Source of the DNA: a virus | IMG/VR virus record: IMGVR_UViG_3300033148_002171 | Coordinates: 1-39,318 of that record | Reading direction: 5' to 3' (one strand) | DNA: 39,318 nt | Shown here: in pieces, positions 505 to 36,818 of the stretch | How the letters are laid out: each line of letters begins with the position of its first letter | Numbering within the stretch: position 1 is the first letter of the stretch | The notes under the pieces: generated by a model | Told to the model about the DNA's origin: nothing | The model's database searches: none | What the model saw: only the letters and a program-made list of their open reading frames with translations | Position numbers and translations under genes: made by a program

Positions 505-588
505 TGGCACCCAAGGCAAGGATCGAACCTGCGCGCTCTGCCTGCTCTATTAAAGTTTGGCTTGCTCTACCGACTGAGCTACTTGGGT
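505..588 (-). tRNA. tRNA-like gene with abnormal anticodon arm
   Basis: Read on the minus strand, the acceptor stem ACCCAAG/CTTGGGT is perfect over 7 bp and is followed by G and an encoded CCA (505-507). The D arm is GCTC-AGTCGGTA-GAGC. The T arm GCAGG-TTCGATC-CTTGC is complete with one G-U pair. Between position 26 and the T stem there are 30 nt (533-562) instead of the usual 22, and no 5-bp stem with a 7-nt loop can be drawn. The only pairings seen are GCC/GGC and CTTT/AGAG. Total length is 84 nt, but the short D loop does not suggest a class II tRNA. It may be degenerate, interrupted or a decoy. The isotype cannot be assigned. Confidence 0.6.
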
Positions 589-6739: not shown

Positions 6740-6789
6740 AATTTAACCGTTGCAAATAATGCAATAGTTGATTAATTATTACATTTTAT

Positions 6790-6910
6790 TTGGTAGTAGC
6801 TAAAAGGTAAGGCAGCAGGGGCTTTGAAAATGAGTCGTAGACATTAGTTATACTGTGAGAGCAATGTAGATAATTGCCGTTTGCTGGTTCGAATCCAGCC
6901 TACCAAACCA
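6790..6910 (+). tRNA. tRNA-like gene interrupted before the anticodon arm
   Basis: The acceptor TTGGTAG (6790-6796) pairs perfectly with CTACCAA (6900-6906), followed by A and an encoded CCA (6908-6910). The D arm GCTAAAAGGTAAGGC keeps A14, G18G19 and A21. The T arm GCTGG-TTCGAAT-CCAGC is perfect. A perfect hairpin GCAAT-GTAGATA-ATTGC (6861-6877) lies exactly 5 nt before the T stem, the right place for an anticodon arm with a normal variable loop. About 46 nt (6815-6860) separate it from position 26. The loop would give anticodon AGA with U33, but T at 37 is unusual. Total length is 121 nt instead of about 76. The isotype is uncertain. Confidence 0.6.
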
Positions 6911-6929
6911 TTAATTAAAGGATTATATA

Positions 6930-7228: not shown

Positions 7229-7392
7229 ATGAAACCATCTGAAAAATGCAAACTAGCAGGACTTAAAAGCTTAAAAGAATTATCTGAAATAAGCGGCGAG
7301 TCAGTCCAGACATTAAACAACTGGCACAAGAATAAGCCTATGCTGTTTGAGCTGACTCTAAAGGGCGCAGTAGTTAAGCGCATGGAAAGGAT
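7229..7392 (+). repeat. HTH gene repeat, copy 1
   Basis: About 160 bp matching 10168-10331 with roughly ten substitutions, several silent. Both copies stand about 860 bp downstream of a copy of the promoter repeat. Confidence 0.9.
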
Positions 7393-7411
7393 TAATCATG
7401 GGGACTTTTAA
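7229..7411 (+). CDS. Small phage HTH protein, copy 1
   Basis: A 60-residue protein: residues 5-50 read CKLAGLKSLKELSEISGES then VQTLNNWHKNKPMLFELTL, a helix-turn-helix seen in many small phage proteins (LKSLKELSE / TLNNWxxNKP pattern). It is almost identical in DNA and protein to the gene at 10168-10344. Only the ends differ (RINHGDF here). It closes cassette 1 and overlaps the start of the probable replication gene at 7398. It probably regulates transcription or replication; the target is unknown. Confidence 0.8.
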   Translation: MKPSEKCKLAGLKSLKELSEISGESVQTLNNWHKNKPMLFELTLKGAVVKRMERINHGDF

Positions 7412-35603: not shown

Positions 35604-36818
35604 CTAACCCTTGATATTAATCAAAGGCCGTACATGAGCTACAACATCAACTAAATCTTTTTGTAATCGCATTACATCGTGAATGTCTTTGTAAGCTAGT
35701 GGCGATTCATCTAAGGTGCTTTCTTCAACCAAGGCAGTTACATCCTTCATTGTTGTTTTAAAATCATCTAAGTTTAGTTCTCGCATTGCCTGTTTGCGAC
35801 CCATCACACGGCCAGCACCATGCGAACTTGAATAAAGGGATTCTGGGTTTCCCTTTCCGCAAACGATGAATGAACCATCTTTCATGTTTCCAGGTATAAC
35901 GCCCATCATTCCTTTTTCTGCGTGGGTAGCACCTTTGCGGTGAATCCAAGCCCCGTCACGTTCGGTTGCATGATTGTGGTTGCGGTTAATTAGCTCAGAG
36001 AAATCTAGCTCATAACAAGAAATATCAAGAGCCTCAGTAATTGCATTAACTACACGAGCCATCATTTCTTTACGGTTTGCTAAAGCAAAGTCTAAGCACC
36101 AGTTCAAATCCTGAATATAATCTTTGCCTTTTTGAGAACTAACATCAAAACCATAATGCCCTTCTTTTGGTCGCAGCTTACCAACCTTCTTAGCGACATA
36201 TTGCGCTTTCAGTCGGTCGTAGTTATCAGGGTTATGCTTAAGTAATTTTTCGCTCTTAGCATCAAACTCTTCTTCAATCTTTTTCGGGTCACTCGATGCA
36301 ACAGTCATGTAATGTGCAGCAATACCGTGACCAACGCCACGACTACCTGAATGAATCACAACCCAAATATTATCTTCCTCATCATGGCCGACCTCAATAA
36401 AATGATTGCCGCCACCCAAAGACCCTAAAGCTTTACCATACTTTTTGATCTCAGCAATCTCCTTACCTTTGTCTGTTAGACCATCAAGATTGTATTCCAT
36501 GGCTTTTTGGTTAGCGTTAAAACCAACAGGGATATATTTGTAAATTAGGTCAAAAATATCTTTCCGGTTAGCCTCAAGCTCATCACGAGAAATACCATCT
36601 AAGCGCAAGGCACACATCCCGCAACCAATGTCATAACCAACCCACGCAGGTAGTACCACGCCCTTTGTGGCAACAACTGCTCCAATTGGCAATGAATAAC
36701 CAGCGTGCGCATCTGGCATCAAAGCGCCGTAGGTTACAAAAGGCTGCTCCATTGCGCTTTCAAATTGTTCAATTGCTGCATCTTCCAAAACTTCAGCGTA
36801 AATCTTTGTGTTTTTCAT
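35604..36818 (-). CDS. rtcB: RtcB-type RNA ligase
   Basis: A 404-residue, full-length member of the RtcB family (E. coli RtcB is of similar size). RtcB joins RNA ends carrying 2',3'-cyclic or 3'-phosphate to 5'-OH ends, using GTP and Mn2+. Metal and active-site residues are present: DIGCGM (Asp63, Cys66), GGGNHF (Asn138, His139), VIHSGSRG (His156), RNHNHATE (His281/283), and the guanylylated His333 in SSSHGAGR. In a phage it could repair tRNAs cut by host anticodon nucleases or join interrupted tRNAs. No archease gene is nearby. It is preceded by a 72-bp inverted repeat. Confidence 0.93.
   Translation of the reverse strand: MKNTKIYAEVLEDAAIEQFESAMEQPFVTYGALMPDAHAGYSLPIGAVVATKGVVLPAWVGYDIGCGMCALRLDGISRDELEANRKDIFDLIYKYIPVGFNANQKAMEYNLDGLTDKGKEIAEIKKYGKALGSLGGGNHFIEVGHDEEDNIWVVIHSGSRGVGHGIAAHYMTVASSDPKKIEEEFDAKSEKLLKHNPDNYDRLKAQYVAKKVGKLRPKEGHYGFDVSSQKGKDYIQDLNWCLDFALANRKEMMARVVNAITEALDISCYELDFSELINRNHNHATERDGAWIHRKGATHAEKGMMGVIPGNMKDGSFIVCGKGNPESLYSSSHGAGRVMGRKQAMRELNLDDFKTTMKDVTALVEESTLDESPLAYKDIHDVMRLQKDLVDVVAHVRPLINIKG

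Follow-up and report, generated by a model that had tools for sequence, protein, structure and literature searches.

What is the tRNA-like gene at positions 6790-6910 of this phage: a tRNA gene interrupted by a small intron, or a tRNA gene that is falling apart? The window, i.e. the whole stretch of DNA that was analysed, is a complete, linear IMG/VR record of 39,318 bp and belongs to a tailed phage with genes for terminase, portal and head-closure proteins and for RtcB. Its genes are of bacterial type, and the relatives of its portal protein sit in gammaproteobacterial assemblies. Rfam finds two tRNAs in it, 6790-6907 on the plus strand and 588-508 on the minus strand, with 40.3 bits each. 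Both are disturbed, and ARAGORN, run on the window, called neither of them nor any other tRNA. We give a probability of about 0.4 to the reading that at 6790-6910 an insert of about 46 nt interrupts the anticodon arm of a phage tRNA between positions 29 and 30 (written 29/30 below) in the manner of an intron and would be spliced out.

An intact tRNA body with an odd centre

The earlier note had described intact arms, an encoded CCA and an in-register hairpin separated by 46 extra nucleotides, and this description is accurate. Rfam RF00005 aligns 6790-6907 as a full-length tRNA (model 1-71, complete). The 5' acceptor strand TTGGTAG (6790-6796; plus strand, as is the whole gene) pairs in seven of seven positions with CTACCAA (6900-6906), which our scanner also found. 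It is followed by U8 and A9 (6797-6798), a D arm GCT...GGC of 3 bp with G18G19 in its loop (6799-6813) and A26 (6814). On the other side come a variable loop CGTTT of 5 nt (6878-6882), a T arm GCTGG-TTCGAAT-CCAGC with five of five pairs (6883-6899), A73 (6907) and the encoded CCA (6908-6910). In its body the gene thus has all that a working tRNA should have, from the fully paired stems of the acceptor, D and T arms to the discriminator and CCA, and the stretch between the D arm and the T stem is about 46 nt too long. The gene folds with ordinary stability (z = -0.17), its cloverleaf lying within 0.3 kcal of the optimum fold.

The long middle contains an anticodon-like hairpin, GCAAT-GTAGATA-ATTGC (6861-6877), with stem strands GCAAT at 6861-6865 and ATTGC at 6873-6877 and a loop GTAGATA at 6866-6872, to be read as G32 U33 A34 G35 A36 U37 A38. 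Its position in register is beyond chance: shuffling the 69-nt middle yields a perfect in-register hairpin with U33 in 0.3% of cases (P = 0.003). GCA occurs at both 6815-6817 and 6861-6863, so the boundaries of the insert can be set at any step between 6815-6860 and 6818-6863. Because of this repeat the break can be placed at 29/30, inside the anticodon stem; the first GCA would then be stem positions 27-29, pairing with TGC at 6875-6877 in a split like that of the small-intron class described below, and the 46-nt insert would be 6818-6863. The perfect split stem with U33 fits this register and, owing to the repeat, is ambiguous with the contiguous ones; shuffled middles fit both the contiguous and the 29/30 registers in only 0.02% of cases (P = 0.0002). 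An interruption just before the anticodon arm had been proposed earlier. A small interruption it is; its site, however, is better read inside the 5' strand of the stem. Two other readings of the gene were rejected: if the hairpin were the variable arm of a class-II tRNA, no anticodon arm with U33 would remain, and for a tmRNA the gene is much too short.

As to the insert itself, a possible closing helix GCTTT/AGAGC of 5 bp is insignificant (P = 0.26) and constitutes no evidence. Group I introns have a conserved catalytic core and are usually longer than 200 nt. With 46 nt the insert is indeed too small to be one of them, as had been pointed out before, and an Rfam search at E <= 3 reported only tRNA and no intron family.

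Removal of the 46 nt leaves 75 nt, CCA counted in, which is a normal length. In the loop that results, G-U-AGA-U-A, three features are odd: G32, the anticodon AGA and U37. In the 53 comparable interrupted tRNAs of other phages position 37 is always A or G (53/53), and neither U37 nor G32 was seen (0/53 each). AGA is a serine anticodon and calls for a class-II tRNA, yet the variable loop of 5 nt is that of a class-I body. Anticodon and body also disagree in identity, since the D arm is of the type GGTAAGGCA, which among phage tRNAs is met most often in tRNA-Gln (11 of the 19 that carry it). In our opinion, the restored tRNA is not convincing.

The best surviving rival is degeneration, named in the earlier note as the sober alternative. 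It holds that the gene is a decaying tRNA, probably of Gln(UUG) origin, whose true loop is the CTTTGAA at 6822-6828 within the insert; an insertion and further changes would have destroyed the anticodon stem, the hairpin would be coincidental and there would be no splicing. We rate this only slightly below a working intron in probability. Besides the D arm, it can call upon the frequency of CTTTGAC and CTTTGAA, which lead among the Gln(UUG) loops of the phages sampled (26/49), and upon the relative G042, where the loop of tRNA-Gln(UUG) is exactly CTTTGAA. However, CTTTGA in itself is weak evidence because 1.9% of shuffled middles contain it, and coincidence would have to account for a hairpin with P = 0.003. 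The CTTTGAA reading also has an improper stem, GCAG/UUGC, in which there are two G too many and one mismatch (G-A). Neither reading of 6790-6910, therefore, gives a normal tRNA, which counts for decay; the interrupted tRNAs of the class called R1 here and those of the contigs G101 and G002 do give one.

The other disturbed gene of the window (505-588, minus strand; Rfam match 588-508), which the earlier note had not listed, also counts for decay. It has a perfect acceptor ACCCAAG/CTTGGGT, a perfect D stem GCTC/GAGC, a perfect T arm and a 3' end GCCA; its middle of 31 nt, which exceeds the normal length by about 8 nt, yields no 5-bp anticodon stem, and this tRNA cannot be restored. Against decay, the damage would be unevenly spread: neither gene has a flaw in its acceptor, D arm, T arm, loops or CCA, and at least 2-3 changes would be needed in each anticodon region, a comparison to be read with the fact that detection favours tRNAs with intact bodies.

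Small inserts in the tRNAs of other phages

A pattern scan of IMG/VR for tRNA halves set 45-75 nt apart, and a scanner that required acceptor, D and T pairing, showed at least 121 distinct interrupted tRNAs, the majority of which have an element in common, R1: an A-rich lead, a hairpin of about 7 bp, 2 nt, ACAGCAA and an A/T-rich tail. R1 inserts are 39-58 nt long, occur in about 100 IMG/VR contigs (L040-L244) in anticodon stems or loops, and leave normal tRNAs when removed; examples are L122 4649-4764, L145 10900-11016 and L156 3235-3348. A perfect split stem at 28/29 or 29/30 is present in 50 of the 121 against 0.4 expected from shuffling, and some of the 121 break at the anticodon loop instead. 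The 53 restored tRNAs have ordinary anticodons (Lys, Asn, Thr, Ile and others). Over 39 R1 sequences all seven pairs of the hairpin covary, with 90.5% paired and a score of 0.986, inflated since the sequences were picked partly by hairpin fit; controls gave 0.30 when shuffled and at most 0.24 when slid. The tRNA-plus-CAGCAA pattern was found in 101 viral contigs as opposed to 1 of 398 Pseudomonadota genomes, and in that one no tRNA surrounds it.

The class extends to isolated jumbo phages. Searched over the whole genomes of CBB (Pectobacterium phage, KU574722), GAP32 (Cronobacter phage, NC_019401) and XbC2 (Xanthomonas phage, OP292654), the R1 model gave five matches, all within tRNA genes of 113-122 nt. 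Interrupted tRNA genes of these phages lie at 295724-295837, 297425-297546 and 302662-302780 in CBB, at about 298388-298500 and 306871-306992 in GAP32 and at about 279180-279297 in XbC2. They are mis-annotated or unannotated: CBB_tRNA10, which restores to Lys(UUU), is annotated as tRNA-Phe(GAA), CBB_tRNA9 is given as 'tRNA-OTHER', and one tRNA-Lys of GAP32 is hidden under the CDS GAP32_431A.

In our opinion, the wider class, whether or not the window gene belongs to it, probably consists of real spliced introns, and the kind of break seen in the window gene, which recurs in many other phages and mostly so that the tRNA can be cleanly restored, looks like an overlooked kind of small tRNA intron. 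Small interruptions of phage tRNAs at this site, which had been called unusual, are real and recurrent, with cleaner cases in G002 and in the RtcB-bearing G101. Such phage tRNA inserts are undescribed in the literature that we searched, from which subscription papers and preprints were mostly absent, so that novelty is unproven; introns go unmentioned in a phage tRNA survey of 2026.

There are further arrangements. A second insert type of 50-85 nt with the core ACUUGYCC...GGRCCGR is found in Lys and Pro tRNAs at sites as in R1 (L429, which is contig G101, 9962-10117 and 10212-10366; L106 10240-10351; L115 3507-3628). A possible further type ends in GUUCCUA (L143 3733-3845 and 8852-8961, L151 4302-4414, L064 2408-2524, L104 7683-7797). 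Three related interrupted tRNAs (L134 2005-2111, L399 1156-1262 and the match to GGTAAGGCA in L424) have a CAUAYAA...UUGUAUG-like closing and a core GAGAGU...CUCG. Finally, we noticed nested genes, in which what looks like a complete tRNA occupies the anticodon loop of a second one with a 7/7 paired acceptor (L056 4972-5120, L110 2123-2269, L068 3871-4021, L102 3273-3423, L042 2870-3004); processing of the inner tRNA would leave outer halves that need joining.

Does the window gene belong to R1? With filters off, the best plus-strand score of the R1 model on 6780-6920 that falls inside the insert is 2.4 bits, which is no match. Neither was a homologue of the locus found: BLAST against phage records gave no match, nor did exact IMG/VR searches with 25 nt of the 3' half or with the 18-nt D arm, and the joined halves match only parts of Asn and Gln tRNAs.

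We collected about 1 Mb of DNA from relatives of the window phage, namely portal relatives and a wider set obtained via portal alignment. In G002, the portal of which is 77% identical to that of the window phage, one tRNA combines flawless acceptor, D and T arms and a CCA with a middle of 108 nt. It reads TTTTT-AT-(about 68 nt)-TAAGT-AAAAA, i.e. Leu(UAA) with a Leu-type D arm, and UAA appears only after about 68 nt are removed; its insert is closed by TCTAGTA/TACTAGA (P = 0.015). Ordinary tRNAs occur in G003 (Pro), G007 (CAT) and G042 (Gln), and several others are disturbed between the D and T stems. In G047 a normal-looking body has a 37-nt variable region and an anticodon stem of 3 bp; in G004 the variable loop is 1 nt; in G049 a 7/7 acceptor encloses a second tRNA-like fold. 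In a relative of the window phage, the locus L364 (9840-9940) has an acceptor ATCGGTA/TACCGAT pairing 7/7 around a smaller, armless tRNA-like fold, ATATGGG/CCCATAT. Remnant-like tRNAs in G006 (acceptor broken) and G080 (acceptor partial) speak for decay. The tRNA gene at 6790-6910 is followed downstream by an ORF of 60 aa (7229-7411), homologues of which lie close to the disturbed tRNAs in G002 and G047.

Perfect bodies with odd centres, as in 6790-6910, 588-508, G047, G004 and G049, might also indicate a tRNA-like RNA without a decoding role: selection would maintain the acceptor/T/D body and CCA, either so that RNase P can process an operon transcript or so that the RNA diverts host factors which bind tRNA, and the anticodon region would be free to vary. 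We regard this as improbable. The same group has the ordinary tRNAs just mentioned, G002 restores to a proper Leu(UAA), and the bodies appear conserved partly because the searches require it.

RtcB and other ligases

The RtcB-type RNA ligase of the window (35604-36818, minus strand, 404 codons) was recognized by PF01139 (307.7 bits), PHROG 1075, its motifs and PDB relatives. It is full-length, with the metal and guanylylation motifs DIGCGM, GGGNHF, HSGSRG, NHNH, HRKGA and SSHGAG at residues 63, 135, 156, 280, 293 and 331. RtcB joins tRNA halves in archaea and animals. The two contigs of IMG/VR with close relatives of this enzyme are G101 (70% identical) and G100. No tRNA was detected in G100. 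All detected tRNAs of G101 are interrupted; they are two in tandem, a Lys(UUU) split at 28/29, GC-(84 nt)-CCA-CTTTTAA-TGGGT, and a Pro(CGG) split at 33/34, AAAGT-GT-(82 nt)-CGGGA-ACTTT.

We considered RtcB as a general marker of interrupted tRNAs and dropped the idea. The R1 model had no match in 13 diverse RtcB phages, and the tRNAs among the matches listed for them are all of ordinary length, 70-92 nt; RtcB alone is consequently not evidence of splicing. The RNA ligase of this genome, which the earlier note had counted in favour of an intron, lends no support on its own, RtcB being found in 649 of 50,697 phage records. No single ligase accounts for the small-intron class, because of 24 phages with small introns only 7 have a T4-type Rnl1, and of 20 only 1 has RtcB, many of them being fragments.

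If the insert is an intron, the transcript of 6790-6910 would fold as a tRNA with the insert bulging from the anticodon stem. Two cuts would release the insert, and the tRNA body would keep the halves in place while they are joined, plausibly by the phage RtcB, 2',3'-cyclic phosphate to 5'-OH. In other phages a T4-type ligase could be the joining enzyme. The conserved R1 element may possibly be self-cleaving.

Weighing the readings against known systems

The intron reading of 6790-6910 is the one we prefer because the body is intact, the hairpin is not expected by chance, site and length match a class of about 100 contigs, the interrupted tRNAs of G002 and G101 can be restored, and the RtcB motifs are present. 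We doubt it because of the odd loop, the missing R1 match, closing helix and homologue, the hints of tRNA-Gln and the second tRNA that defies restoration. This copy departs from the clean cases, and as a mature tRNA it may work poorly or be in decay already. Taken as a whole, the fuller account appears rather unlikely, namely that phages carry undescribed small tRNA introns of 40-85 nt and of several structural types, at 28/29, 29/30 or after U33, which are removed neither as group I introns nor by an archaeal endonuclease, and that the gene at 6790-6910 belongs to them as a divergent member, its halves being joined by the phage RtcB.

Splicing of such small inserts would mean that phages have a route of tRNA splicing unknown in bacteria, and phage RNA ligases would have a concrete substrate. 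Many catalogues of phage tRNAs would be incomplete or wrong, since ARAGORN misses such genes and annotators have labelled them as tRNA-Phe, tRNA-OTHER or coding sequence, or not at all. The conserved element of 40 nt might act as a new ribozyme or as a signal to which a protein binds.

That the insert is a divergent group I or archaeal-type (bulge-helix-bulge) intron is very improbable given its size, the gammaproteobacterial setting and the negative Rfam result, even if group I introns do occur in anticodon loops of bacterial tRNAs and archaeal introns of similar size are joined by RtcB. Bacterial tRNA-Leu(UAA), tRNA-Arg and tRNA-Ile contain group I introns (review PMC3984707), and the window gene resembles these as an anticodon-region interruption of a bacterial or phage tRNA; they differ by their hundreds of nucleotides and conserved core, which the insert lacks. 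Archaeal and eukaryotic tRNA introns, removed by an endonuclease and joined by RtcB or Trl1, share the size range. However, the phage is of bacterial type, and a search of its genome for the tRNA-splicing endonuclease PF01974 gave no match (4 archaeal controls were positive). By eye, the insert junctions have partial UUG/CAA pairing and no clear 3-4-3 motif.

The closer parallels are in phages. G002 shares with the window phage its family, an intact tRNA body and an anticodon-region insert; it differs in a loop break at 33/34, the longer insert, the 7-bp closing helix, an identity that agrees with the anticodon, and a contig without RtcB. G101 is likewise an RtcB phage with intact tRNA bodies interrupted at matching sites, although its inserts of about 82-84 nt have the ACUUGYCC...GGRCCGR core, absent from the window, and its anticodon loops are canonical. 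The window insert is without the 7-bp hairpin and ACAGCAA of R1, and its restored loop is non-canonical, without a purine at 37; nevertheless, with its intact body, its length and its break it resembles the R1 genes of CBB (tRNA9 and tRNA10), GAP32 (tRNA-Lys) and XbC2, in which inserts of 39-58 nt interrupt the anticodon stem at 28/29 or 29/30.
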